DNA from: Thalassospira sp. MCCC 1A01148
GTDB lineage: Bacteria; Pseudomonadota; Alphaproteobacteria; Rhodospirillales; Thalassospiraceae
Assembly (NCBI RefSeq): GCF_001613795.1
Contig: NZ_LPVZ01000012.1
Span: 496,001 to 560,000, forward strand
Direction: 5' to 3'
DNA: 64,000 nt
Both the position numbers and the translations under genes were made by a program. Under the pieces are notes generated by a model. It was not told the origin of the DNA. It made no database searches and saw only the letters and a program-made list of their open reading frames with translations. The stretch's first letter is position 1. Every line of letters begins with the position of its first letter. Shown piece after piece: positions 27,556 through 41,366 of this stretch.

Positions 27556-28413
27556 ATGACCTCCATGCCGTTCTCTCGCAGAATGCGTCGCTGGAAACTG
27601 GGTTTGAAGACCCTGTTTGGCAACGCGCCAGCAGGCTATTTCATTCCATACCGCTACGCCAATGAGACAGGCAAGGCCGTTGGACGCCCTACCTACCCGG
27701 CAATTGAAAACATGATGGACGGCGCGGCCCCCACCATGAAAGCATGGCTTACAAAGGCTGCACAGTATCATGATGCATTTGCGAGTTTCGGCAACGCCAC
27801 CCCGCCCAACCCGCGCTGGCAGCAAAGTTGGTTTCCGCGCCTTGACGGCATGATGGCATATGTCTTTACGCGTGAATTTCGCCCTGATCGCATCATTGAA
27901 ATCGGATCTGGTCATTCAACCAGATTCTATTACCGCGCGATCAAAGACGGCGAACTTGAAACATCATTTCACGCCATCGACCCGGCACCACGTGCCGATA
28001 TCGCAAAGCTGCCAATCACGGTCGAGCGCACCATCGTCCAGAAGGCCGATCCGAAGGTGTTCGATACGCTGACAGGCGCAGACATCTTGTCCATCGACTC
28101 AAGCCATATTCTGATGCCCGGAACGGACGTTGACCTGCTTTTCTCATCGGTCATCCCGGCCCTGCCAAGCGGGGCGATCATTCATATCCACGACATCACC
28201 CTGCCTGATGACTACCCGGAAATCTGGCAATGGCGCGGATATAACGAACAACAGGGGGTCGCGGCCCTTCTGGCCGGCGGCGGGTTTGAAATCATGTGGT
28301 CAAGCGCATATGCCACGACCCGCATGCGTGACGAGGTTGATCACTCCATAGCCAACGGCATCCACCTTCCCGAAGGCGCGCATGAAACAAGTCTTTGGCT
28401 GCGCAAGCGCTAG
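27556..28413 (+). CDS. Class I SAM-dependent methyltransferase-like protein
   Basis: 285 residues. The middle contains a Rossmann-type motif I, RIIEIGSGHSTRFYYRAI, followed by an acidic loop (HAIDPAPR) and motif-like segments ILSIDSSHIL and GAIIHIHDI, the pattern of the methyltransferase family 24 group often found with glycosyltransferases. The target cannot be predicted. AGGGG eight bases ahead of the ATG supports the start. It follows the MFS gene by 55 bases and may be the last gene of the dusA unit. A strong terminator comes just downstream. Confidence 0.78.
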   Translation: MTSMPFSRRMRRWKLGLKTLFGNAPAGYFIPYRYANETGKAVGRPTYPAIENMMDGAAPTMKAWLTKAAQYHDAFASFGNATPPNPRWQQSWFPRLDGMMAYVFTREFRPDRIIEIGSGHSTRFYYRAIKDGELETSFHAIDPAPRADIAKLPITVERTIVQKADPKVFDTLTGADILSIDSSHILMPGTDVDLLFSSVIPALPSGAIIHIHDITLPDDYPEIWQWRGYNEQQGVAALLAGGGFEIMWSSAYATTRMRDEVDHSIANGIHLPEGAHETSLWLRKR

Positions 28414-28431
28414 ATAACCTCGCTCAGAACA

Positions 28432-28462
28432 GCAAAAGGCAGCCTACGCGGCTGCCTTTTGC
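28432..28462. terminator. Bidirectional terminator closing the long minus-strand operon
   Basis: GCAAAAGGCAGCC-TACGC-GGCTGCCTTTTGC: a 13-base perfect stem with A/T tracts in both arms. It can terminate both the methyltransferase transcript and the convergent eleven-gene glycan/ABC transporter unit, whose last stop codon is 22 bases away. Confidence 0.92.
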
Positions 28463-28483
28463 ATGTGTGATGGTTATCGTGTG

Positions 28484-29653
28484 TCAGTTCTTGTAGGGGT
28501 CGGCCGCATCGCGCAACCCATCACCCAGGAAGTTAAAGGCTAGCACCACGACAACCACTGGGACAACCGGCAACATCAGCCAGGGATAAACCGCGACCGC
28601 ATTGATGTTTTGCGCTTCATTAAGCAAAACACCCCAACTGGTCACCGGCGCACGAAGCCCCAGCCCAAGAAAACTAAGCGCTGTCTCGCCAAGGATCATG
28701 TTCGGGATTGAAAGTGTTACCGATGCGATAAGGTGGCTGGCAAAGTTTGGCAAAAGATGACGCCCGATGATGCGTTTTGGTTTTGCACCCATCAGGCGGG
28801 CTGCCAGGGCATAGTCTTCTTCGCGCAGAGCCAAAAGCTTTGACCGCACAGCGCGGGCAAGTCCGGTCCAATCAATCAGGCCCAGAATGATGGTGATACC
28901 GAAATAGATCAGGATCGGGCTCCATGTGACCGGCAAGGCCGCCGATAATGCCATCCAGAGCGGGATTTCCGGCAAGGAGCGAATTACTTCGATCGAACGC
29001 TGAGCTGTTGAGTCGACCCAGCCACCGTAATAGCCGGCCGCCCCGCCGATCAGAATGCCGAGCAAGAAACTTACCGCAATCCCGACAAGGCCAATGGTCA
29101 GCGAAACACGCGCGCCATAGATGATGCGCGAAAACATGTCGCGTCCCAGTCTGTCGGTACCAAATAAGAACAGTGTGCCGTTCTCTGAGGGGCAGATGAA
29201 ATGGAAGTCCATATCAACCATGCCCCAGAATGCGTACTCATCCCCGGAACAGAAGAAACGAAGCTGTTCAAGCCGGTCAGGGTTAACCGTATAGATCGGC
29301 TTGAGCGTTTCCATATCCACCGAGAAATCCGTGCCATAGGTAAATGGCCCAACAAATTCCCCGTCATGGAAAAGATGCACCCCCTGCGGCGGATGGTGGA
29401 TGTATTCGGAATTACGCGTTTCCTGTGCATAAGGCGCAATGAATTCGACGATAAAGACCGACGCGTACATAATCGCCAAAATAATCAGCGAAAAATAGGC
29501 CAGCCGGTGGCGTTTCAAACGCCACCACATCAATTGCCATTGCGAAGCGAGGAAATACTTTTCCTGCTCTGGCGTCAGTTCCTCGCGGTCCCAGGGATTG
29601 AACGGTGCAGTATCAACAAAATGTTCGTTCCGCTTTTCTGTTTCCTTGCTCAT
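28484..29653 (-). CDS. ABC transporter permease, DppC/OppC type with periplasmic insert
   Basis: 389 residues; inner-membrane permease of a peptide/oligosaccharide-type importer. The N-terminal OppC signature (SQWQLMWWRLKRHRLAYFSL) leads to the first helix, then a periplasmic segment of about 110 residues (containing YGTDFSVDMETLKPIYTV) before LFGTDRLGRDMFSRIIYGAR and five more helices. The cytoplasmic coupling loop is AARLMGAKPKRIIGRHLLPN. The long insert is unlike DppC/OppC of E. coli and recalls permeases of alphaproteobacterial oligosaccharide importers such as Agp; that comparison is from memory. It overlaps the other permease by four bases and is the last gene of the operon. Confidence 0.88.
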   Translation of the reverse strand: MSKETEKRNEHFVDTAPFNPWDREELTPEQEKYFLASQWQLMWWRLKRHRLAYFSLIILAIMYASVFIVEFIAPYAQETRNSEYIHHPPQGVHLFHDGEFVGPFTYGTDFSVDMETLKPIYTVNPDRLEQLRFFCSGDEYAFWGMVDMDFHFICPSENGTLFLFGTDRLGRDMFSRIIYGARVSLTIGLVGIAVSFLLGILIGGAAGYYGGWVDSTAQRSIEVIRSLPEIPLWMALSAALPVTWSPILIYFGITIILGLIDWTGLARAVRSKLLALREEDYALAARLMGAKPKRIIGRHLLPNFASHLIASVTLSIPNMILGETALSFLGLGLRAPVTSWGVLLNEAQNINAVAVYPWLMLPVVPVVVVVLAFNFLGDGLRDAADPYKN

Positions 29654-30648
29654 TTGCCAACCCCTCCCTGCAAGCGGATACGAGGGTCAAGCCAAGCAAG
29701 CAAAACATCGGAAACAAACATCCCGACAACCGTCAGCAGTGCCAGAAACATCAGGAACGAACCAGCCAGATACATGTCCTGACTTTGCAAAGCGGTAAGC
29801 AACATCGGCCCCGTAGTGGGCAATGACATCACAACCGATACCAGAACCGACCCCGAGACCACCTGTGGCAGGATGTTACCGATATCGGCAATGAATGGGT
29901 TAAGAGCCATACGGAGCGGATACTTGAACAGTACCTTGGTCGGTGAAAGCCCCTTGGCATGGGCGGTCACAACATACTGTTTGCCCAACTCATCAAGAAG
30001 GTTCGCACGCAGACGGCGGATCATGGATGCCGTGCCAGATGTCCCGATAACGACGACAGGCGCCCAAAGGTGTTCGACCACCGACATCATCTTGCCCAAG
30101 GACCAGCCTTGGTTGATGTATTCCGGGTCCATCAGGCCACCGATTGATGTGCCAAAAACGACGTTGGCATAGTAAAGCAGGATCAACGCGAACAGGAAGT
30201 TCGGCATGGCAAGACCAAGGAATCCCAGAAGGGTAAAGCCATAGTCGCCCCAGCTATATTGCCGGGTTGCAGAATAAATCCCGATCGGGAAGCTGACGAT
30301 ATAGATGAACAGAACCGTGCTGAAATTCAGGACCAGAGACAACCAAAGGCGGTCGCCAACCACGTCGGTTACCGGCAGGTTGTATTCAAAGGAGAACCCA
30401 AGATCACCCTGCAAAAGGCCCCACGCCCATTCGGCGTACTGAATATAAATCGGCTGATCGAGCCCATATTGCCGTTTGAGAAACTCGATCTTGGCTGGAT
30501 CGACCGCCTCACCCTGTGCTTGAAGCTCGTTGAGATAGGTGGTCAGAAAATCACCGGGTGGCAGCTGAATGATCACAAAGACCAGCACACTGATTATCAA
30601 CAGTGTGGGTATCATCACAAAAAGCCGTCTTGCCAGATAGGTCAGCAT
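29650..30648 (-). CDS. ABC transporter permease, DppB/OppB type
   Basis: 332 residues, six transmembrane helices. It begins MLTYLARRLFVMIPTLLIISV, the standard DppB/OppB start, and contains the coupling loop TAHAKGLSPTKVLFKYPLR and the motif RRLRANLLDELGKQYV. It forms the transmembrane channel with the OppC-type partner encoded directly downstream (four-base overlap). It follows the binding protein gene after a 76-base gap. Confidence 0.92.
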   Translation of the reverse strand: MLTYLARRLFVMIPTLLIISVLVFVIIQLPPGDFLTTYLNELQAQGEAVDPAKIEFLKRQYGLDQPIYIQYAEWAWGLLQGDLGFSFEYNLPVTDVVGDRLWLSLVLNFSTVLFIYIVSFPIGIYSATRQYSWGDYGFTLLGFLGLAMPNFLFALILLYYANVVFGTSIGGLMDPEYINQGWSLGKMMSVVEHLWAPVVVIGTSGTASMIRRLRANLLDELGKQYVVTAHAKGLSPTKVLFKYPLRMALNPFIADIGNILPQVVSGSVLVSVVMSLPTTGPMLLTALQSQDMYLAGSFLMFLALLTVVGMFVSDVLLAWLDPRIRLQGGVGK

Positions 30649-30724
30649 CGGCGCTGTTGCTCCCCCGATGCTGTTTCACGCCATTCCCTCAACAGCGCAA
30701 AACAGCAGGTTTCCAGTTAAAAGA

Positions 30725-32656
30725 TTATCGATCCCACCAAAAGGTATCAGGTCGATAAATCCCAAAGAACGCGCCCGGCTCCCAGCTGTGGATGCCTTTT
30801 TCCGGCACGTTGCGCATATTCTTGTCGATGATCACCGGTTGCGGCACGTTACCGATCAGACCGATCGAAAACATGTTTTCGGAATTGATGTCCAGAATGG
30901 CCTGCCATGCTTTTTTCTGGCCGGCTTTATTGCTGGTTTGCCATTTGCGGTATTGTTCCATCAGTTCCTTGGCCGCAGGCATATCCGGTGCCTCGCCCGC
31001 TTCGCCGTCGGTTTGATAGTACTGCCCCCATTTGGGCCATTGCAGGCTGTCTTGCAGAACGGGAACGAACTCATCCGGTGCGGTATTGGGCGTGGCCAGT
31101 CCGTTATCAATACCGTTGAAGATCGACATGATCGTCTCGCCGCTATAGGCACGGCTACGCATTACTTCGCGCTGCAAGCCTTTGACGAACAACTTGATCC
31201 CGACCTTGCGCCAGCTGTCACCAATCAGTTCAAGCATATCGTCATGTTCGGGGTTCTCGCCAGATGTCTCTACAATGATTTCCATCGGGCGGCCATCGGG
31301 CAGAAGACGGATACCTTCGCCATTGCGTTCATCCAATCCGATCGCATCAAGCAGCCTGTTGGCTGCCTTGACATCGAAATCGGTATAGCTTTCGCGGTAT
31401 TCCGGTTTGAAAAGCGGGCTTTTTGGCAGAACAGTGTTGTTGGTCGGCTTGGCCAGCCCAAAGAACATGACCCGATTGATCTCGGTCCGGTTGATCGCCA
31501 GTGACAACGCACGACGGAAACGCACATCGCGCAAAACTTCGCGCCAGACCGGATCGCTACATGTCAGGTTCGGGTACAGGGCGGCATAAGCCCCTGCCCC
31601 GACATCCCACAGACGCACATTATAATTCTGTTTGGCCTCGGACTGTTTTAGGAAGGTGTAATCCTTGAGCGACAGAATTCGGCTTTGCAGATCAACTTCG
31701 CCCGCACCGACCTTTGCCGGAACCAGTTTGGCATTCGAGATATCAAAAACCATCCGGTCGATATAAGGAAGCTGGTTACCTTCCGGATCGACCCGGTGGT
31801 AATACGGGTTTCTGACAAAAACAAACCGGTCAGACGGCTCTTCGGTTGTGATCAACCATGGTTCAAGCGACGGGCGCTGAATATTGGAAAGCTTGTAGGG
31901 CCGGTCCATGTCCGTATGTAAAACTGCCCAGCTTCGTAGCCCGCGCTCTTGAACAATTGCTTCAAGTTCGCTGGCGTCGCGATAGTTCTCGTGAAACTGT
32001 TTCAGATAATGCGCAGGACGATAAATGAAGGGCGGACGGGTTCCGGCCAGCTCCGTCAGGAAGAACGGGTTTGGCTGCGACCAGCTATAGCGCACTGTAT
32101 ATTCGTCAAGAATTTCAAAGGTTGCCGGTTCGTCGCCAACAAACAGGAAACGCGGCGGACCAACCGGAAACAATTCATCGTTATTGACGATATCTTCCCA
32201 ATAATAGCGGAAATCCTCTGCCGTGAATGGTTCGCCATCTGACCATTTGTGGCCTTTGCGAATATGCAACGTGAAAACATTGCCTTCTTCATTCACTTCA
32301 AGATCTTCAAGGATATCGGGCTCAAGGTTCAAGTCCTGGTCATACCCGATCAGTCGCGCATACCCATAAACGACGGCCATCCGAATATCCTTCGACCGCC
32401 CCATAATCGTTACGAATTCCCCGCCATATTTGCCGATTTCCTTGTCCTCGGCAGCGAAGTCAATGACATGCGGGTGTTCCGGCAGGCGGTCGTTCATCGC
32501 GGGTAAGGAACCACTAGCAACCGCGTCCTCGAAATATGGGATTTCTGCATTGGCAGTCGACGCAATCGCACCTGCCCCCACGATGCCTGCTGTCATCACC
32601 AGACCGGTCAAGGCGCATTGAATCATAGACTTCGGCTGGTTCGAGGGACTGATCAT
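30725..32656 (-). CDS. ABC transporter periplasmic binding protein, family 5
   Basis: 643 residues; signal peptide about 37 residues long (hydrophobic LTGLVMTAGIVGAGAIA, cut near ANAE). The mature protein shows the family 5 (peptide/nickel/oligosaccharide) pattern: GKYGGEFVTI, LTLHIRKGHKWSDGEPFTAEDF-type motif (here FTLHIRKGHKWSDGEPF) and RALSLAINRTEIN. Its length exceeds DppA/OppA (about 535) and fits the longer binding proteins seen with oligosaccharide-type Opp systems. The gene order ATPase, binding protein, permease, permease and the four-base overlap with the ATPase gene make a complete importer. The ligand is unknown; location next to a glycan cluster suggests an oligosaccharide or muropeptide. 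Confidence 0.9.
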   Translation of the reverse strand: MISPSNQPKSMIQCALTGLVMTAGIVGAGAIASTANAEIPYFEDAVASGSLPAMNDRLPEHPHVIDFAAEDKEIGKYGGEFVTIMGRSKDIRMAVVYGYARLIGYDQDLNLEPDILEDLEVNEEGNVFTLHIRKGHKWSDGEPFTAEDFRYYWEDIVNNDELFPVGPPRFLFVGDEPATFEILDEYTVRYSWSQPNPFFLTELAGTRPPFIYRPAHYLKQFHENYRDASELEAIVQERGLRSWAVLHTDMDRPYKLSNIQRPSLEPWLITTEEPSDRFVFVRNPYYHRVDPEGNQLPYIDRMVFDISNAKLVPAKVGAGEVDLQSRILSLKDYTFLKQSEAKQNYNVRLWDVGAGAYAALYPNLTCSDPVWREVLRDVRFRRALSLAINRTEINRVMFFGLAKPTNNTVLPKSPLFKPEYRESYTDFDVKAANRLLDAIGLDERNGEGIRLLPDGRPMEIIVETSGENPEHDDMLELIGDSWRKVGIKLFVKGLQREVMRSRAYSGETIMSIFNGIDNGLATPNTAPDEFVPVLQDSLQWPKWGQYYQTDGEAGEAPDMPAAKELMEQYRKWQTSNKAGQKKAWQAILDINSENMFSIGLIGNVPQPVIIDKNMRNVPEKGIHSWEPGAFFGIYRPDTFWWDR

Positions 32657-34581
32657 ATGGCGATCTCCTTAAAGTCGGCACGTTCGGCGCGAACAAAGTG
32701 ATCTTCGGCGACCTGCATCATCGTGGGGTCGCTGGTCTGATTGATCGTGAATGGTGCAGGCCAACGGGACGGATCAGACGCCTTTCCATCCACGATCTTG
32801 TCAAAATCAAGCAGGTGGTCCAGATCCGCAAACGGCACAGCATGCAGCAACGCCTGGGTGTACGGATGGATCGGATTTTTAAACAGCAACTCACGCGGTG
32901 CAGACTCAACAATGCGCCCGGCACACATCACTGCAATCCTGTCTGCCACATAATCCACCACCGCCAGATTGTGCGATATAAACAGATACGTCAAATTAAG
33001 ATCACGCTGCAAATCTTTCAAAAGATTAAGTATTTGCGCCTGAACTGACACATCAAGTGCGGATGTCGGTTCGTCAAAGATCAGCAAATCGGGTTTAAGG
33101 CTAAGCGCACGTGCAATCCCGATACGCTGGCGCTGTCCGCCCGAAAAACTGTGCGGATAGCGGTTCAAAAAGCGGGGATCAAGACCGACCAAATCCATCA
33201 GTTCCAGCACCATTTTCTGCCGATAGGCACTGTCCCCGACACCGTGGATAAGCATCGGCTCTGTGATGATGTCCTGTATCGTCATCCGCGGATTAAGCGA
33301 TCCGAACGGATCCTGAAAAACAAATTGTATCCGTTTCCGGTATGGATTTAGCTGATCTTCATCAAGACCGGTCAATTCGGTCAACTGACCGCTTTCACCC
33401 CGAAACATAATGGACCCTTCATCCGGGCTCATCGCGCGCATGATAAGCTTCGACAACGTCGTCTTGCCGCAGCCACTTTCCCCCACAAGCCCGACACATT
33501 CACCCCGATTGACGGTCAGCGAAACGTCTGCGACTGCGGGTATAAGATGCTTTTCAGACTTGATCCAGTTGCCCTTGCGGGTGGTAAAACTTTTGCTCAG
33601 GTGACGCACCGCAAGAACCGGCTCGCTTGCCATGGTCGGATGCAACGCCAGCGACGCGGGAACATCGGATGGCTCACGGTCCGTTACCTTGTCACCAGCA
33701 TCCGCCAGCAAACTGCCTGTTTTTGGCTTGATCTCGCGCAGGGGACGCAAACGTTCATCCGGTCCCATGTCAAAATGAGGAACAGCCGCCAACAATGACC
33801 GTGTATAGGCATGCCCGGGATTGATGAACACGTCATCGGTCTTTCCCGATTCCACAACGCGCCCGTCATAAATGACAACCATCCGATCTGCCATATTCGC
33901 CACAACGCCCAGATCATGGGTGATCAATAAAAGCGACATCTGAAGTTCTGACTGCACCTCCTTGATCAGGCGCAGAATTTGCGCCTGGATCGTCACATCA
34001 AGCGCAGTCGTCGGCTCATCAGCAATCAGCAATGCCGGTCGGCAAACCAATGCCATCGCGATCATTGCGCGCTGGCGCAAGCCACCGGAAAGTTCAAATG
34101 GATAGGTTTTAAGTGAATGGTTGGGCTGCGGAAATCCGACCAATGTCAGCATCTCAACGGCAAGTTCACGCGCCTCGGCCGCGCCAACCTTGCGATGAAG
34201 CTTTACTGCCTCGCAGATCTGGTCACCAATGGTGTGCAGTGGAGACAGGGAACTCATCGGTTCCTGAAAAATCATCGAGATTCGACCGCCGCGGATAGAA
34301 CGCATTTCCGAGCCGGAACGATCCAGCATAGCAATATCGACACGCGTACCCGGCTTTTTAGGATCGGCAAAGATGATTGATCCGTTGGTAACTTCGGCCA
34401 CCCTTGGCAGCAGCCCCATAATGGCCTGCGAGATCGTACTTTTACCTGATCCAGACTCGCCCACCAGCGCGACGGTTTCCTGCGCACCAATGCGAAAGCT
34501 TACATTCTCGACCGCCTTGACACGCATGTGCGGCAGAACAAACTCAACTTTCAGATCCTTGATACGCAGAATATCGGTCAT
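32653..34581 (-). CDS. ABC transporter ATP-binding protein, fused DppD-DppF type
   Basis: 642 residues containing two complete ATPase domains in one chain, as in YejF and GsiA. The first has Walker [10 protein letters not shown] and signature LSGGLRQR; the second has GESGCGKTT and FSGGQRQR; both have Walker B ([11 protein letters not shown] and [11 protein letters not shown]). It drives the importer encoded by the next three genes. It starts 17 bases after the stop of the small membrane protein gene, with no terminator in between, tying the transporter to the glycan genes upstream. Confidence 0.94.
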
Positions 34582-34598
34582 TTCCAGTTCGTACCACC

Positions 34599-35219
34599 CT
34601 AAGTGCGTTCGGATGCGGCGGCCTTGACCAGCGTTTCCGCCTCATCCATGCGCATCAAGTTTGTTCTTGTGACGTCATCAACCAGCAATTGGTTATCTTT
34701 CGCCCAATCACGAGAAATTTCAAGGAGATCGTCAAATCCGTCCAGTGTCGATTCTGCGACAATTTTGGCTTCACCAGCTTGTAAGGTCAGCTCGAACCAC
34801 CCCTTGTTACCGTCACGCTTGGTACTAAAGTAACGCAAACGGAACTTGGAAAGTTCCGGCCACGCGAAAGCCGTTCCTCCGCGCAGACTGGAAAGACGTA
34901 TCCCGTACTCCGAAACATAAATCTTCGACTGGAACCGCAAAATCGTGCGCGCAAAATAGAATACGAACAGCAACGCCAGCCCTGCCGCGGTCCATTGAAT
35001 AATTTCAAGCATCTCGGGGATCAGCGCGATTACCCCGCAAATCAGCAAACCGACAACAGACTTTGCCAAATCAGGCGCCATCAGCTTTGACGGATAGCCC
35101 ATGGTCTGAACTTCGCTGTCACCAACACCAGCCGGTTTTACGGGATCCGCAGCACTGGGCGTTGCAGGCATGCTGGTGGTTGCATCTGGCTCCAGATGTT
35201 CTTTGGGACTTACTGCCAT
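34599..35219 (-). CDS. Small membrane protein with PH-like cytosolic domain
   Basis: 206 residues, not recognised as a named family. A polar N-terminus of about 40 residues precedes two hydrophobic segments (VVGLLICGVIALI and TAAGLALLFVFYFARTIL), after which comes a predominantly beta domain (KIYVSEYGIRLSSLRGGTAF, then WPELSKFRLRYFS, then WFELTLQAGEAKIVAES) resembling bacterial PH domains, and a helical tail. The ATG at 35219 has a GGAG seven bases upstream, and the gene overlaps the preceding one by ten bases. Position between glycan genes and an ABC transporter suggests an accessory role at the inner membrane; this is inference. Confidence 0.65.
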   Translation of the reverse strand: MAVSPKEHLEPDATTSMPATPSAADPVKPAGVGDSEVQTMGYPSKLMAPDLAKSVVGLLICGVIALIPEMLEIIQWTAAGLALLFVFYFARTILRFQSKIYVSEYGIRLSSLRGGTAFAWPELSKFRLRYFSTKRDGNKGWFELTLQAGEAKIVAESTLDGFDDLLEISRDWAKDNQLLVDDVTRTNLMRMDEAETLVKAAASERT

Positions 35220-35968
35220 GGAAATACTCCGGGTATTCTCAGCCAGCACAAAGCTGAATGGTCCATCGAAAACAGATTATCAAGGAACTTCGTGGTGGCT
35301 TCGTCATGCACAAGATGATGGGTCAGAATGCCGGTTGGTTCATCGGCATCCACCTGACCGGTTCGTCTGGCGGCAAGGTGACTGATCATTGCCCCAAGGG
35401 CGATATCTTCGCCAACAAAGCCACGACTGCCTCGCCAATCAATAACATCCACATGTGTGTTGACCTGCATGATGCCTTTGTATGGCTCTGCCACCTTGCG
35501 CGGATTAAACGTGCTAATTCCGCAAAAGCCAAGGGAATGCAACGCCGCCACGACATCTTCGGCCACCCTGTTCCATGGCGGCACCAAGACCGGCAGAAAA
35601 CGATTACCAAACCGCGATTGTAATACAGAAAATCCGTTACGCAGATCAGCGACCACATCGCCGATGTCACGCACGTCATCAAGTTCCTGTTTCTTGCGCC
35701 CTTCTGGCATATGGTTCTGATGAGACCAGCCATGCTGCAAGACCCGCGTATCGAGGGTCTCAACCAGACGTTCAACCAAGTCGTCCTGCAGTTCTGCCGG
35801 GATAACAGCCAGTGCAAGCGGAACCTTGTAATCCTGCTCCAAGGCTAAAAGGGTCTCAAGTTCAGGGGTAACGGAAACCGCATCATCGTCGCGCCACCAT
35901 GCCGTGGCCGTCCTTCCTTCGGACTGCCACAGATCAAGTTCCGCGCGCAAATGGTCCCAACTGCTCAT
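35210..35968 (-). CDS. Polysaccharide deacetylase-like protein
   Basis: 252 residues without signal peptide. WWRDDDA (24-30) provides the metal-binding and catalytic aspartates; HGWSHQNH (79-86) matches the HxxxH metal motif; VPPWNR and the THVDVIDWRG segment match later family motifs, as does ILTHHLVHDE. The fold is that of carbohydrate esterase family 4-like deacetylases. A cytosolic enzyme of this kind could act on a lipid-linked or nucleotide-linked sugar. Four-base overlap with the upstream glycosyltransferase gene. Confidence 0.78.
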   Translation of the reverse strand: MSSWDHLRAELDLWQSEGRTATAWWRDDDAVSVTPELETLLALEQDYKVPLALAVIPAELQDDLVERLVETLDTRVLQHGWSHQNHMPEGRKKQELDDVRDIGDVVADLRNGFSVLQSRFGNRFLPVLVPPWNRVAEDVVAALHSLGFCGISTFNPRKVAEPYKGIMQVNTHVDVIDWRGSRGFVGEDIALGAMISHLAARRTGQVDADEPTGILTHHLVHDEATTKFLDNLFSMDHSALCWLRIPGVFPWQ

Positions 35969-37107
35969 GCCTGCCCTTTTATATTTTCTGCGATGATAGA
36001 CGCAGTTCTCGCCGCGCCATCCAAGTCAATCTTAATCCCGCTTGGATCTCTGGCGTTATCTATTTGTTTTGCTAATGATTGCGCAGACAGGCCATCAAGA
36101 TCAAGCAGGGAAATAACCCCTTCATCTGCAAGAACTTCCGCACGCTCCGTTTGTTCGCTTTCACCGCCTTCTGCAAACGGCACCATAACCGCAGGTGTTT
36201 GCGTTGCCAGCACATCCATAAGTGTATTGTATCCGGCCTGGGACACGGAAACCGCTGCGCCCGCCATCCGGTCACGAAAATCAGACAAGAACCGATGCAA
36301 AACGACACCGTCGGGCAGGTCTTTGTTCAGCATTTCAAAATGCGCTGACGGGAAATGCGGGCCAGTCACAATATCCCATTTGGCGTCATGGTAGTTCCGA
36401 GAGTGGGCGCGCGCAGCAATGGCATGTCTGATCAAATCGGCCCCGACGGCCCCGCCACCTGCAGAAACCAAAACCCCCTGGCGATGGCCATTACCAGTGT
36501 TGCTCGGCGGGTTCGGGACTGTTGGTGCGACATAGCCCGTGTAGGTAATCAGATCAGCGATACCGTCAGCAAGCTCAAAACTGCGGTCAAACCCGAACAG
36601 TTTCTGATCTCCGTGGACCAGCACTGCATCAAGATATTTGCGCGCAGTATCATGCATCCACTGTGTTTTACGGATGTCTTTTTTGCGCACCAAAAGGTCT
36701 CTGACAGAACAAACCACGGGCACTCCGGCTTCTTTTGCCGCGTCAAACAGCGGAATCAATTCAAACCGGAACGCTCTGCGGCCGAACGGGAACATCTCAA
36801 TCAAAAGAAGCTTGGGCGATGATGATTTGAAAGCCGCCAAAAGCTGACTCTTACGCTTTTCCTGCCAATCATCACCTAATGGATTCCCATAGGGATCGAC
36901 AAGCGCAGAGAAACCCGTATCAGACGTCTTGCACGGTGATAGCTGAACCACCTCATCAGCCGCAAAATCAAGATTGTCATCCGGGACACCGCCGCTTGCG
37001 ACGATCACACTCAGACCCCGGTTACGAAGCGCCTGATTGATCAGCGCCATGCGGCGTACATGCCCAATACCAAGCAGGTGCTGCACATAAACCAGAACGT
37101 CGCTCAT
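35965..37107 (-). CDS. MurG-like GT-B glycosyltransferase
   Basis: 380 residues. The N-terminus MSDVLVYVQHLLGIGHVRR carries the GxGHxxR loop, and the C-terminal half has SQAGYNTLMDVLATQTPAVMVP, the nucleotide-sugar-binding pattern of the MurG/glycosyltransferase 28 group. The ATG at 37107 overlaps the histidine phosphatase stop (ATGA); a frame 31 codons longer would run into that gene. It is a paralogue of the glycosyltransferase at 40164-41366, sharing GHxRR and GYNT. Probably cytosolic and membrane-associated; acceptor and donor unknown. Confidence 0.82.
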   Translation of the reverse strand: MSDVLVYVQHLLGIGHVRRMALINQALRNRGLSVIVASGGVPDDNLDFAADEVVQLSPCKTSDTGFSALVDPYGNPLGDDWQEKRKSQLLAAFKSSSPKLLLIEMFPFGRRAFRFELIPLFDAAKEAGVPVVCSVRDLLVRKKDIRKTQWMHDTARKYLDAVLVHGDQKLFGFDRSFELADGIADLITYTGYVAPTVPNPPSNTGNGHRQGVLVSAGGGAVGADLIRHAIAARAHSRNYHDAKWDIVTGPHFPSAHFEMLNKDLPDGVVLHRFLSDFRDRMAGAAVSVSQAGYNTLMDVLATQTPAVMVPFAEGGESEQTERAEVLADEGVISLLDLDGLSAQSLAKQIDNARDPSGIKIDLDGAARTASIIAENIKGQA

Positions 37108-37706
37108 AACTCTGGCTCCGAGGATACAAGTGGCACGTTCAATGCCTCGATAGATAGGCCAGACATCTCGGACCAGCCAAACACCTGCAGACATTGCCAA
37201 TCAAGTTTGTCAGGAATCTTGCCCATCATGTTCCAGCCACGCGCGGCGGCATAAACCGATCGTATGACACCCTTGTGGGTCACGACACCAAAACTTGGCA
37301 TATCGCAGCCCCGCAAAAACGCTGTGACACGTTCAAGAACATCTCGCGGACTTTCACCCTTATCCGGTCGAAAGTCCCAACCACGGTCCTCGTTCTCGCG
37401 AAGCTGTTCTCCAAGTCGGGTGCGAAGATCAGGAAGTTTCTCGCCTTCCCACATACCCCAATCCATTTCAATAAAAGGTGATGCTGGCGCTATGGACCCG
37501 ATCCCCAAAGCGTTAGCTGTTTCACGGGTGCGCGATAGCGGAGAAGTAAACCAGGGCACCTGACACCAGTCCTCGGGCAATTTGTGCTTTTGATACCAGG
37601 CAACGGTTTCTGGCGTGATTGATATATCTGTGTGCCCCTGAATGCGTTTTTCAGCATTCCATTGGGTTACGCCGTGGCGCAGCAGGGCAAAACGGGTATT
37701 GATCAT
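37104..37706 (-). CDS. Histidine phosphatase family protein (phosphoglycerate mutase-like)
   Basis: 200 residues. The catalytic LLRHGVTQWNAEKRIQGHTD is at the N-terminus, followed by SPLSRTRETA and the second catalytic histidine in VVTHKGVIR. This is the broad cofactor-independent phosphatase branch. Embedded between two glycosyltransferase genes with four-base overlaps on each side, it may dephosphorylate a sugar phosphate or lipid phosphate in the same pathway; that is inference. Confidence 0.85.
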   Translation of the reverse strand: MINTRFALLRHGVTQWNAEKRIQGHTDISITPETVAWYQKHKLPEDWCQVPWFTSPLSRTRETANALGIGSIAPASPFIEMDWGMWEGEKLPDLRTRLGEQLRENEDRGWDFRPDKGESPRDVLERVTAFLRGCDMPSFGVVTHKGVIRSVYAAARGWNMMGKIPDKLDWQCLQVFGWSEMSGLSIEALNVPLVSSEPEL

Positions 37707-38857
37707 GCGCTGCTTTGCCCGTCCTGTTGATTTCCGTAGTTTGATACGACCTGTGTGATGGTTGCTGACAGCAGGTCTGCTGCAGCCTCAACCGTATGAA
37801 GCTGTTTGGCTTTCGACGCACCCGCATGCCCAATGGTCCGCAACACCGGCGCATCGTCCTTGATACAGCGGGAAAGTCGGTCTGCAAAGGCGTTCACGTC
37901 CCCAACCGGAACAAGCCAACCTGTTACCCCACCAGACACAATACCGGACACGCCGCCTGCATCCCCAGCCAAGACAGGAAGGCCGCTGGCTTGGGCTTCG
38001 AGCAGCGCCATGCCGAATGCTTCGTTGATGGCTGGCCAGACAAACAAATCAGACTTGCCAAGAATGTCGCGGGTTTGCTGCGGCGTGGTTAACCCCATAA
38101 ACGACACTGCATTTTGCCCAATGCTGGCATCATCAAACAAGTGTTCGACCGTTTGGCGTGCCGGACCATCGCCAATAACCGTCAGATGCCAGTTATCAAT
38201 CCCCTCCCCCAAAAGTTTCCCCAATGCCTTTGCCAGCGCCTCGTAGGATTTCAGTTTGTCACCATCGCGCATCATTGCAGTTGTCACCAATCGGATGCAG
38301 TCGCGATTGATCTCGGGGCGCTCGGTGACTGTCCAGTCATCTACCCGGTTAAAGGGGTGTAAAAAATGCAAACGGCTTGATGGGCACACCTGTTCAAGGC
38401 ACGCCATATCCGCGCGGTTTAGGGAAAAAACTGCATCCGCCTGTTGCAAGGCGGTTTTAACGGCCACATGGCTTTGCGCCCATAAACCAGTGGCGCGTTT
38501 TGGTGCGAAAGATGCTTCGGCCACGACATAGGGAATACCCAATGCATCCGCGACAATCGGCCCGATCCAGTCTGGTGCCTTGTAATAGAGATGATAGGTA
38601 AACCACACGTCCGGTTTGGGGCGGAACCCGGAGTGATATTGGCGAAGCAACCTTGCCGCAAGATTTGTCCCGACTTCTGCCATCCGCGCCTGCCTGAAGG
38701 CGTTCCCATCCGCGACCCGGCTTCGAAGGCGCACCGCAACGTTAACGTTCATACCTGCCGATTGCAGGGCGTCGCAAAGCATGCGCGCGATCAGACGATC
38801 ACCAGACGGAACTGGATGATCAATCGGTTTTAGGGGCGCATAAAAGGCAACCTGCAA
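37703..38857 (-). CDS. Glycosyltransferase, GT4-like
   Basis: 384 residues, GT-B fold. The C-terminal half has the GT4 pattern VIGDGPARQTVE, then FVWPAINEAFGMALLEAQASGLPVLA and GGVSGIVSGGVTGWLVP, with the catalytic glutamates in NEAFGMALLE. The start is a TTG at 38857 backed by AGGAGG eight bases upstream; no ATG is available in the right place. Eleven bases separate it from the preceding gene. Retaining transfer from a nucleotide sugar is expected of the family; the sugar is unknown. Confidence 0.86.
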   Translation of the reverse strand: MQVAFYAPLKPIDHPVPSGDRLIARMLCDALQSAGMNVNVAVRLRSRVADGNAFRQARMAEVGTNLAARLLRQYHSGFRPKPDVWFTYHLYYKAPDWIGPIVADALGIPYVVAEASFAPKRATGLWAQSHVAVKTALQQADAVFSLNRADMACLEQVCPSSRLHFLHPFNRVDDWTVTERPEINRDCIRLVTTAMMRDGDKLKSYEALAKALGKLLGEGIDNWHLTVIGDGPARQTVEHLFDDASIGQNAVSFMGLTTPQQTRDILGKSDLFVWPAINEAFGMALLEAQASGLPVLAGDAGGVSGIVSGGVTGWLVPVGDVNAFADRLSRCIKDDAPVLRTIGHAGASKAKQLHTVEAAADLLSATITQVVSNYGNQQDGQSSA

Positions 38858-38868
38858 ATGTTTGCCTC

Positions 38869-40143
38869 CTACTCTGCAGCAGATTGATCGGTGGGCCTTG
38901 AGCCCTGTTCTGCTGGCTGAACCACACCAAAGCGGTCTGCCAGATCTTTCATGCCGCGATAGAATGAGAAGTCACGGCGGACGATTTCGTTGCCCTTGCG
39001 CCCCATTTCTTCGCGGAGCTTCGGGTCAACAATCATGGTTTCAAGAGCAACCGCCAAAGACGCGGGATCACGTTCAGGCACAAGCTTGCCGTTCACACCG
39101 TCCTCGATCAGCTCAGGAATGGCCGATATCGCCGTTGAAACTGCCGAAAGTCCGCAAAGCTGTGCTTCCATCAAGACGTTTGGCAGACCATCGCGGTCGC
39201 CATCCTTCTCAATGCGACTGGCCAGCACAAACAAATCAGATGACTGACAAGCAGCAATCACTTCCTTCTGATCACGCGCGCCTTGCCAATCGCAGCGATC
39301 GGCAATGCCAAGTTCCCTGGCCAGCTGTTGGTATAATTCGCCACTGCCGCCACCAATGTGGACAAAACGCCAATGAAGGCCATCGGGCAGTTTCGCCAAT
39401 GCGCGCAGAAGATCGTCATACCCCTTCTTCCCAACCAACCGCCCGACAGACAGGATCACCACCGGGTTTTCAGGATCGCTGCCATCGCGCAAGGGCCGTT
39501 CTGACAAATCTTCCGGGAACCGGGAAAAATCCAGACCATGATAAAGAAGATGAACCTTTGCGGGGTCTTCGGCAAGCGTACGCAGGTAGTCGACATTGGC
39601 CTTGGTGCAGGTCACGAGCCAATCCATATCACGCAGCTTTTCACGCATATCCCAGTCCTGACTGGTATAGATATCCTTGGCGTGGGCCGAACAGGACCAC
39701 GGGAGACCACGCATGATGGCGCAATATCGGGACACAGAAGCCGGTGTATGCAAGAAGTGCGCGTAAATGCGCGTGATATCATCTGGAAGTTCTGCGGCCA
39801 TCACCATTGCCTGCGCAAATCGGCGTGCGCGATTGGCTGTACGGTCGCGCCGGTAATCCTGCCACCAGAGATTCACGGCACGACGGTATCCCGGCATCTT
39901 GCGGGCCTTGAACCAGCCACGCAAAACGCGCATCGGTTCCTGATAGACATATTCAGGCAAGTAATCGACCGAACCGGCAATGCGCTCATTGATCGGGTGA
40001 CGTTTTTTGTCGGTTGGATGACGCAGTGAGACAATCCGATAAGGAATTCCGGCCTGTTGAATGCCGAGAATTTCCTGCGCTATGAAGGTCTCCGACAATC
40101 GCGGATATCCCTTCACCACGATTGCCAGACTATCGCGTGCCAT
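38869..40143 (-). CDS. Glycosyltransferase, GT4-like
   Basis: 424 residues. It opens LAIVVKGYPRLSETFIAQEIL, the typical start of colanic-acid/WcaL-type GT4 enzymes, and the donor-binding half has ILSVGRLVGKKGYDDLLRAL, HIGGGSGELYQQL, DRDGLPNVLMEAQLCGL and EDGVNGKLVP. TTG (40146) or ATG (40143) could start it. Gap of 20 bases to the glycosyltransferase upstream. WcaL-type enzymes add sugars to lipid-linked exopolysaccharide repeat units, which suggests an envelope polysaccharide here. Confidence 0.88.
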   Translation of the reverse strand: MARDSLAIVVKGYPRLSETFIAQEILGIQQAGIPYRIVSLRHPTDKKRHPINERIAGSVDYLPEYVYQEPMRVLRGWFKARKMPGYRRAVNLWWQDYRRDRTANRARRFAQAMVMAAELPDDITRIYAHFLHTPASVSRYCAIMRGLPWSCSAHAKDIYTSQDWDMREKLRDMDWLVTCTKANVDYLRTLAEDPAKVHLLYHGLDFSRFPEDLSERPLRDGSDPENPVVILSVGRLVGKKGYDDLLRALAKLPDGLHWRFVHIGGGSGELYQQLARELGIADRCDWQGARDQKEVIAACQSSDLFVLASRIEKDGDRDGLPNVLMEAQLCGLSAVSTAISAIPELIEDGVNGKLVPERDPASLAVALETMIVDPKLREEMGRKGNEIVRRDFSFYRGMKDLADRFGVVQPAEQGSRPTDQSAAE

Positions 40144-40163
40144 CAACTTGTTTTCCCGATGCG

Positions 40164-41366
40164 TTACTCTGCGGCCATTTGCGGCGGAAGCCAGCGATCC
40201 ACAAGATCACCCACGCGATCCAGCCCGCCCATAAGGTTCGGAACAGTGACATTGGACGGTTTTGGCTGCTGGATCAAACCATGCAGTGCATCCGCCATCT
40301 CACGCGGATCACGCCCGTCATCCTCTGTAAGCATTTTGACCAGGCCAAGTTTTTCAGCTGCCGAAGCGCGCACATATTGTTCAAGGCGTGGCACGGTGCG
40401 TGGCACGATGACAGCTGGCTTGTCAAAGGACAGGATCTCGCAGAACGTATTGTAACCGCCCATGCCGATCACCCCGGCCGACTTGTGCATCAGTACTTCG
40501 ACATTGGCATCAAAGGTAATGACAGACAGCTTGTCGATCTTCTCGGCACGCTTCATGAATTCATTTTGTTGCACCGGGCCCATGAATGGCCCAAGAACCA
40601 CAAGTGAGGGTACCGGAATGGTCGGGTCGGTCTCGTAGGCACTGATCACCCAATCCACCAGATTGACCCCATCCCCACCGCCACCGGTGGTAACCAGATA
40701 AAACGGCTCTTCCAGGCCAAGCGCGCCGTGCTCTGGTGCTGGCCGGCGGGTCGCCGTACGCGGCAGATAGCCGGTATAGGTCATCTTTTCTTCAACGCCC
40801 GGGGGCAAATCGATCCCTTCGAGCGGATTGCAGATTTCCTTGAGACCATAGACCCATATTTCATCATACAGATCTGCCAGAGCCGGAACGCATTGCTTCC
40901 TGTCCCATTCCTCGCGCAGGTGCACCGGATCATCCATCACATCTCGCAAGCCCATCACCAAACGGGTGCGGCGATGGCGCAGCATCTGCAGCGTAGATTC
41001 GACCTCGCCGCGCAAACCAAGCGGTTCCTTGTCGACGATAAATATGTCCGGGTTGAATACATCTGCCGTGTGCTGAATGATCGACTCTCGCATCGCGAGG
41101 ATCTGGTCGACATCAATATTGAGATTGAGCGAGGTATATTCGCCATTGGAAAGCTTGATCACACCCGGAATGCGGACAAAGTCAACGCGCGAACGAAACT
41201 CGAAACTGCCAATGATCGGCGAGCCTGACAAAATCAGAACCGATACATCATCACGTCGTGAAACCATCGCATGCGCAATGGTGCGGCAACGGCGCAAATG
41301 CCCAAGCCCGAACGTATCATGGCTATAAATCAGAACCCGATAACCGGAATTCCCTACGATTGACAT
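40164..41366 (-). CDS. MurG-like GT-B glycosyltransferase
   Basis: 400 residues. It begins MSIVGNSGYRVLIYSHDTFGLGHLRRCRTIA, with the GxGHLRR loop of MurG-like enzymes, and ends with GMGGYNTFCEILSFDKPAVIVPR. It is a paralogue of 35965-37107. An upstream TTG at 41444 could add 26 residues, but conservation begins near the ATG. It is the first gene of the eleven-gene minus-strand unit, 133 bases after the start-side neighbour, so the operon promoter is expected in 41367-41499; I see no clear sigma-70 pair there. Confidence 0.82.
   Translation of the reverse strand: MSIVGNSGYRVLIYSHDTFGLGHLRRCRTIAHAMVSRRDDVSVLILSGSPIIGSFEFRSRVDFVRIPGVIKLSNGEYTSLNLNIDVDQILAMRESIIQHTADVFNPDIFIVDKEPLGLRGEVESTLQMLRHRRTRLVMGLRDVMDDPVHLREEWDRKQCVPALADLYDEIWVYGLKEICNPLEGIDLPPGVEEKMTYTGYLPRTATRRPAPEHGALGLEEPFYLVTTGGGGDGVNLVDWVISAYETDPTIPVPSLVVLGPFMGPVQQNEFMKRAEKIDKLSVITFDANVEVLMHKSAGVIGMGGYNTFCEILSFDKPAVIVPRTVPRLEQYVRASAAEKLGLVKMLTEDDGRDPREMADALHGLIQQPKPSNVTVPNLMGGLDRVGDLVDRWLPPQMAAE

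Follow-up and report, generated by a model that had tools for sequence, protein, structure and literature searches.

Among the systems described to date, those closest to the locus analyzed here are, on the import side, the family 5 substrate-binding proteins (SBPs) SPH1118 of Sphingomonas sp. A1 and AgpA, which binds alpha-galactosides, and, on the export side, ATP-binding cassette (ABC) exporters of the MsbA and ChvA type. SPH1118 serves foreign pectin, and the available portion of PMC9314435 describes its own ABC transporter as not yet clarified. The present locus is an eleven-gene operon of Thalassospira sp. MCCC 1A01148 (4.31-Mb genome), located within a 64,000-nucleotide stretch of contig NZ_LPVZ01000012.1 (hereafter, the window), in which a predicted glycan assembly cassette (g01 to g07) is followed by the genes of an importer (g08 to g11). 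All eleven genes lie on the minus strand and are co-directional, running from position 41366 down to 28484, and their order, strand, and open reading frames (ORFs) were checked in the sequence. This composition, order, and strand had been put forward in an earlier note on the same DNA and were borne out by the ORFs and by Pfam and NCBIfam.

The eleven genes appear to form one undescribed system, which is kept in many alphaproteobacteria and has a rearranged counterpart in root-nodule bacteria. The importer is of the Opp/Dpp type (family 5), being composed of an SBP_bac_5 protein, two permeases, and two ATPase domains with oligo_HPY ends. We tentatively propose, as the leading reading but not as a settled one, that the operon encodes the core of a conserved envelope oligosaccharide system comprising synthesis, export, and re-uptake. 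Two GT28-like and two GT4 glycosyltransferases would assemble a short glycan in the cytoplasm, from which the NodB-like deacetylase g06 would remove an acetyl group and the histidine phosphatase g04 a phosphate. The product, possibly acidic (uronate containing), would then be carried over the inner membrane by an MsbA-like ABC protein controlled by a cyclic nucleotide monophosphate (cNMP)-binding domain, its destination being the periplasm, the surface, or the medium, and the dedicated Opp-type importer would return it, or a fragment of it, for recycling or feedback. Gene content, conserved order, the common phylogenetic pattern, and catalytic-type motifs are observed directly, and from them we infer which way the cycle runs, what sugar it handles, that the ABC protein acts in export, and that re-import takes place.

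Conservation of the cassette and the importer

Within the genus, g06 was found in all 29 Thalassospira genomes searched, and all eleven genes were matched in each of the 20 relatives fetched (from 28 others), with no separation of the ABC genes from the glycan genes; conservation in close relatives, which the earlier note had named as a check, is thereby upheld. The closest relatives of g01 among named records were of Thalassospira, together with one Rhodospirillales metagenome-assembled genome (MAG), in a survey which covered the best 80 of 582 confirmed stretches and in which some organism titles are doubtful (e.g., Mycobacterium sp. KBS0706). The same order, with no g04 match, was also present in records of these best 80 of 582 that are titled Betaproteobacteria (L184, L187, L196, and L234).

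Across the class, g06 was detected in 84 of the 289 genomes sampled, and 80 of the 82 positive genomes from outside the genus were used for comparison, the two with fragmentary g06 matches (G093 and G252) being left out. Based on tblastn (1e-8), all eleven genes were present on one strand in 37 of these 80 loci, and all except g07 in 45, contig cuts included, while matches to individual genes ranged from 56 (g07) to 80 (g06) loci. The four importer genes lay downstream of g06, with their order kept, in 59 loci. The contig was cut such that only g08 was counted in five loci and ahead of any importer gene in three, and five loci with room possessed a partial importer, three of them having no SBP between g08 and g10 and two having no permease match. 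In the remaining eight, where room was available, no importer gene followed g06; four of these (L083, L103, L108, and L129) carried a full importer a few kilobases upstream of g01, divergent in two and co-directional in two. The importer was at least partly linked in 68 of the 72 non-genus loci with room.

An SBP (g09) orthologue at an E value of 1e-120 was identified in 90 of the 289 class genomes; g06, this orthologue, and the insertion that marks the candidate export protein discussed below occurred together in 79 genomes, with none of the three in 188. Conserved gene order and a shared pattern of presence and absence together lend strong support to the view that the glycan cassette and the importer are functionally coupled. 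Chance linkage or an annotation artifact was considered and ruled out by the conserved gene order. In a phylum sample of 398 genomes, g01 was matched at 1e-60 in 31, of which two lie outside the class, and a single IMG/VR scan that used exact peptide patterns from the ATPase revealed no viral relatives.

Binding protein g09 and its possible ligand

The ligand of g09 is, as judged from its relatives, likely a sugar. The protein forms long family 5 alignments with both described sugar binders, covering most of its length in the case of SPH1118 and of T. maritima 5ipw and including gaps in that of AgpA. Ranking of PDB entries against g09 placed 5ipw first, followed by SPH1118 (7ver), AgpA (6epy), and a chitin-oligosaccharide-binding protein (1zty), while SBPs named for nickel or dipeptides scored below the sugar binders. 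In SPH1118, 14 residues contact a galacturonate trisaccharide (PMC9314435, available portion). Two of these, Arg466 and Trp594 (a stacking residue), are invariant in all 24 g09 proteins aligned, corresponding to R496 and W625 of the window protein, whereas the other 12 contacts are not uniformly identical. Glu216 is replaced by Asp in 21 of the 24 and Asn53 by Arg or Lys in all, the position of Phe592 is aromatic in 22, and Arg294, a contact of SPH1118 to 2-(N-morpholino)ethanesulfonic acid (MES), is invariant. That the sugar is acidic is uncertain on this comparison.

The kinship of g09 with pectin- and alpha-galactoside-binding proteins would also suit a scheme of import followed by decoration, in which the importer takes up a foreign plant or algal oligosaccharide that the cassette extends or modifies, and several carriers are indeed plant-associated rhizobia or Azospirillum. 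We consider this scheme unlikely in view of the occurrence of g06 in all 29 genomes searched of Thalassospira, a genus of marine type, and of the many named loci (best 80 of 582) that belong to MAGs titled lake, groundwater, or open water; moreover, no sugar-degrading family was recognized among the ORF clusters, most of which are unannotated.

A second family 5 SBP in the same genome, 28% identical to g09, directly precedes a CckA/VirA-type hybrid histidine kinase (L268:9912-14222, C20 at ~825 to 829 kb), an arrangement which suggests an SBP-based sensor. This neighbor and the use of SPH1118 in chemotaxis as well as assimilation (PMC9314435, available portion) would fit an importer that acts as a product sensor, in which g09 would signal the periplasmic glycan level either to the biosynthetic enzymes or to the chemotaxis machinery, in the way that SPH1118 signals pectin. 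Such a role is quite improbable, as the full double ATPase and two permeases, retained in the 59 loci described above, go beyond what a sensor needs. Family 5 importers also transport metallophores, and the deacetylase would expose amines, both of which would be in keeping with a diffusible secreted signal or metallophore-like amino-oligosaccharide that is retrieved by the importer; given that SPH1118, AgpA, and the chitin-oligosaccharide-binding protein outrank the nickel-named SBPs, this product type is very improbable.

The candidate export protein and relatives on plasmids

No Wzx/Wzy flippase or polymerase and no ABC-2 exporter was recognized by Pfam and NCBIfam among the eleven operon proteins, ten of which were included in the Pfam scan, with g11 scanned against NCBIfam only. 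The claim that no flippase is present thus holds for the operon itself, yet the genome has a candidate export protein at another site, and many relatives encode one beside g01. Clustering of the ORFs of 154 non-genus loci yielded one more large family resembling true coding sequence, an ABC protein of ~883 residues found in 69 loci. Both this protein and g01 were clustered in 47 loci, and in 44 of these the ABC gene is located upstream of g01 in the opposite orientation. A cNMP-binding protein of ~150 residues was present in 41 loci, in 36 of which it matched what we take to be the CRP-like phosphate-binding motif. The motif was likewise matched in three of seven named or own-genome copies (Thalassospira, Rhizobium johnstonii, and Sinorhizobium meliloti) and not in the two Azospirillum copies or in those of Sulfitobacter and Shinella. 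In the window's own strain, the ABC and cNMP parts are fused into a protein of 1,080 residues, encoded on another contig (C19, ~51.8 to 55.1 kb; L266:9845-13087).

An insertion of about 250 residues in the ATPase domain of this protein was detected in 98 of the 289 genomes sampled from the class; of the 84 that carry g06, 82 possess it, and in 49 of those 82 it lies no more than 20 kb from g06. In an AlphaFold2 model of the L213 copy (mean predicted local distance difference test score [pLDDT], 85.6), the protein adopts the fold of a type IV exporter and the insertion in its ATPase domain is helical; PDB matches of the model include P-glycoprotein, TmrAB, and MsbA. The protein resembles MsbA- and ChvA-type exporters in its transmembrane region and overall fold, but differs from them in the insertion, in ATP-site motifs that are altered in most copies, and in the linked or fused cNMP-binding domain. 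We regard it as a candidate for the export step missing from the operon. A segment resembling TLxENLLFG was seen by eye three times in its ATPase domain.

Related clusters were identified on several plasmids. That of S. meliloti pSymB (NC_003078, ~822 to 846 kb) contains g01, g02, g03, g05, g06, the importer, the exporter, and the cNMP protein, and that of R. johnstonii pRL11 contains g01, g02, g05, the importer, the exporter, and the cNMP protein. In contrast to the window, both show a changed gene order and additional genes for a cyclase, DUF3095, and a UDP-sugar dehydrogenase, and neither has a g04 or g07 match, while the pRL11 stretch has no g03 or g06 match either. The megaplasmid clusters of S. 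meliloti and S. fredii (the latter by tblastn only) share the added cyclase, DUF3095, and nucleotide-sugar dehydrogenase, and a PF14099 polysaccharide lyase is encoded just upstream of the importer in both; pRL11 and a Shinella plasmid possess similar sets with no lyase match. In Sulfitobacter, the dehydrogenase, g01 to g06, and the exporter are arranged in a single run, close to which the importer is encoded, two Azospirillum plasmids harbor the exporter, the importer, and g01 to g06 co-directionally, and a Hyphomicrobiales plasmid carries g01 to g06 and g08 to g11 in window order. Among 11 plasmid regions compared (L260 and L262 lay outside this comparison), a UDP-sugar dehydrogenase match was obtained in seven, including two S. 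meliloti strains and one weak match in Escherichia, and a lyase match in three; the window's genome carries two dehydrogenase-family genes, on other contigs. As such dehydrogenase and lyase neighbors occur in some taxa only, a requirement for uronate is retained merely as possible. Rhizobium lusitanum has a further, divergent Opp-type importer set, encoded on the opposite strand ~10 kb from g01 (L270:29304-34000).

The gene pRL110056, called an O-antigen biosynthesis enzyme, is listed among root colonization genes in the available portion of PMC11103875. It is probably g01, g02, or g05 of the R. johnstonii cluster, because g01 is approximately the fiftieth gene by locus tag count from the plasmid start and these three are the only annotated glycosyltransferases between 1 and 81 kb, in a gene table that is incomplete; the tag itself is not confirmed. 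The pSymB polysaccharide genes covered in the available portion of PMC5498481 appear to differ from this cluster.

More distant clusters occur on plasmids of Escherichia sp. and "Candidatus Manganitrophus" (L275 and L276), each with g01- and g02-like genes, phosphotransferase-family genes, and an alginate export protein and with no importer in the stretch. In the Escherichia cluster, counterparts of g01, g02, and g03 follow one another and an ABC protein comes next, but identity is about 30%, while the "Ca. Manganitrophus" version is looser and includes an alginate lyase and a histidine phosphatase. In contrast to these two, no polysaccharide-type outer membrane exporter is annotated in the alphaproteobacterial cluster regions, for which no dedicated search was made and plasmid gene tables are incomplete. 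Genes for mechanosensitive channels are located next to the clusters of S. meliloti (L264:37-2157) and Sulfitobacter (L273:14085-16340). The lack of an annotated outer membrane exporter and the presence of these channel genes would accord with an osmotically regulated periplasmic glycan (OPG)-like role, whereby the glycan is made inside, exported by the MsbA-like protein, and kept in the periplasm, the importer recycling it. Such a role also appears unlikely, given that the operon proteins yielded no OpgG, OpgH, or NdvB match (Pfam and NCBIfam) and that channels are annotated in just two of the regions examined.

Several observations weigh against the proposed cycle of synthesis, export, and re-uptake. 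With respect to linkage, four of the 80 loci have room yet no linked importer, L136 carrying g01 to g06 without it and L078, L123, and L125 carrying g06 without the remaining cassette or the importer; three of the 84 g06-bearing genomes have no SBP match; an Azospirillum oryzae plasmid holds only g01 and a piece of g02; and the presence/absence counts and Fisher values take no account of relatedness. Regarding the ligand, the best PDB match of g09, 5ipw, bears an oligopeptide-binding name (OppA), although no peptide complex is reported for it in the available portion of PMC9314435. That only 2 of the 14 trisaccharide contacts of SPH1118 are identical throughout the g09 family is a further difficulty, and nine are not kept or fall in gaps (Arg57, Leu295, Ser298, Asn324, Arg438, Asp483, Val484, Arg496, and Glu505), the key contacts Arg57 and Arg438 among them. 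Of 184 genome loci, four gave a dehydrogenase match and none a lyase match, and a search of the window's genome for the PF14099 lyase family returned no match. The earlier suggestion that a fragment is re-imported agrees with the relatives of g09 and with the Sinorhizobium lyase beside the importer, but it lacks such a lyase match in this genome and stays conjectural.

In the candidate export protein, a classic Walker A motif is present in 2 of 31 copies, a Glu at the catalytic place in 18, and the H-loop His in 10. Because these ATP-site motifs are altered in most copies, the protein may not be a pump but a regulated or noncanonical transporter in most relatives. The Thalassospira copy has kept Walker A and the catalytic Glu, though not the H-loop His; in weighing the envelope oligosaccharide system, this retention balances the weaker evidence from the SPH1118 contacts. 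A more specific version, which we rate as rather unlikely, is a closed glycan circuit gated by cAMP or cGMP, in which an acidic, partly deacetylated oligosaccharide would be released and then monitored or recycled by the importer, the ATP site of the releasing ABC protein having decayed in most lineages.

Gene layout, transcription signals, and significance

The coordinates of the operon genes and adjacent features are collected in Table 1. Gaps separate g01 from g02 (17 bases), g02 from g03 (11 bases), g07 from g08 (17 bases), and g09 from g10 (76 bases), and 4-base overlaps join g03/g04, g04/g05 (taking the g05 ATG start at 37107), g05/g06, g08/g09, and g10/g11. The pattern first described, with four-base overlaps and no gap longer than 76 bases, therefore holds at every junction except g06/g07, where the overlap is 10 bases with a g07 start at 35219 and 40 bases with one at 35249. 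The 17-base gap between 34599 and 34581, at which an internal promoter and terminator had been named in the earlier note as grounds for refuting a single operon, has no stable hairpin (z, -0.26), and the consensus scan listed neither signal in it. Two transcription units split at this point were accordingly considered and rejected.

Table 1. Positions of the operon genes and neighboring features in the window
Feature	Coordinates	Strand	Evidence
g01, GT28-like (MurG/PseG-like) glycosyltransferase, 400 aa	40164..41366	-	Pfam Glyco_tran_28_C, 34.3 bits
g02, GT4 glycosyltransferase, 425 aa	38869..40146	-	Pfam Glycos_transf_1, 107.5 bits
g03, GT4 glycosyltransferase, 384 aa	37703..38857	-	Pfam Glycos_transf_1, 93.4 bits
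g04, histidine phosphatase, 200 aa	37104..37706	-	Pfam His_Phos_1, 101.2 bits
g05, second GT28-like glycosyltransferase	35965..37107	-	Pfam Glyco_tran_28_C, 49.3 bits (scanned from 37110); alignment
g06, CE4/NodB-like deacetylase, 252 aa	35210..35968	-	Invariant motifs in 39 sequences
g07, two membrane helices and PH-like domain	34599..35249 (start 35249 or 35219)	-	AlphaFold2 model
g08, fused double ATPase of Opp-type importer, 642 aa	32653..34581	-	Two ABC_tran and two oligo_HPY stretches
g09, family 5 substrate-binding protein, 643 aa	30725..32656	-	SBP_bac_5, 213.6 bits
g10, importer permease B	29650..30648	-	BPD_transp_1, 102.4 bits
g11, importer permease C, 389 aa	28484..29653	-	NCBIfam Opp4C, 260 bits (cut-off 350)
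Long stem-loop in 76-base g09-g10 gap	30649..30724	-	z -2.53 for 30640-30740
Strong hairpin after g11, between convergent genes	28425..28470		-27.2 kcal/mol, z -6.19
Class I SAM methyltransferase, possible accessory, convergent with g11	27556..28413	+	Methyltransf_24

With regard to the individual enzymes, the g01 alignment has 80 invariant columns over 27 rows, and R10-H11, R59, E80, and H144 of g04 are invariant in an alignment of 19 sequences. No glycosyltransferase model reached its curated cut-off among the best 25 NCBIfam matches listed. The g06 protein scores below the Pfam cut-off for Polysacc_deac_1 (14.2 versus 23.1 bits), but its orthologues are annotated as polysaccharide deacetylase family proteins, and D27/D28, H79, H83, PPWNR (130 to 134), and H217 are invariant in all 39 aligned sequences (that of the window and 38 of 100 listed relatives). 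All 39 thus possess the Asp, the His-x3-His metal site, and the later catalytic motifs of carbohydrate esterase 4 (CE4; NodB), roles that we presume for these residues. No signal peptide was seen by eye in g06. Because PDB searches with the g01 and g06 profiles gave no match at an E value of 0.01, no sugar donor or acceptor can be derived from them. The AlphaFold2 model of g07 (modeled from 35225; mean pLDDT, 89.7) comprises two helices and a pleckstrin homology (PH)-like domain, for which Foldseek returned weak matches to PH domains and EROS, none at an E value of 0.001. The ATPase motifs of g08 are intact by eye, and g11 also matches other OppC-type NCBIfam models, all under curated cut-offs.

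At the end of the operon, where a single strong terminator had been proposed, the hairpin after g11 is strong, but it has a short U-tract, is placed between two convergent genes, and is absent from the consensus terminator scan list. At the corresponding site in the 20 relatives, several have strong hairpins of other sequence and others have none within 90 bases. The stem-loop between g09 and g10, which is perhaps an mRNA stabilizer, has counterparts of differing sequence in many of these relatives, with mostly weak z-scores. Downstream, the S-adenosylmethionine (SAM)-dependent methyltransferase gene may be an accessory of the system, a homologue being present in 24 of the 80 non-genus loci and convergent with g11 in all 24.

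While the enzyme and transporter families involved are already known, the novelty lies in their combination, in how widely it is conserved, and in its unusual ABC partner linked to cNMP binding. Queries of the open full-text literature, by multiple terms or guessed tags, returned no description of the operon's families together, of COG4671, or of the pSymB locus (the latter by guessed tags), and none of a cNMP-linked exporter with glycosyltransferases or of the alginate export version, in agreement with the earlier view that no such system had been described. The conserved block would represent an entire envelope pathway whose product is yet to be described, with a rearranged counterpart in model rhizobia; there, if the unconfirmed tag is correctly placed, a root colonization phenotype may already be on record for a glycosyltransferase of the R. 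johnstonii cluster. As synthesis, an ABC protein linked to cyclic nucleotides, and an importer come together in this system, laboratory strains allow a loop of glycan recycling or glycan sensing to be tested directly. The closed circuit, if true, would be for glycans what loops of export and re-import are for peptides, and would be widespread in Alphaproteobacteria.

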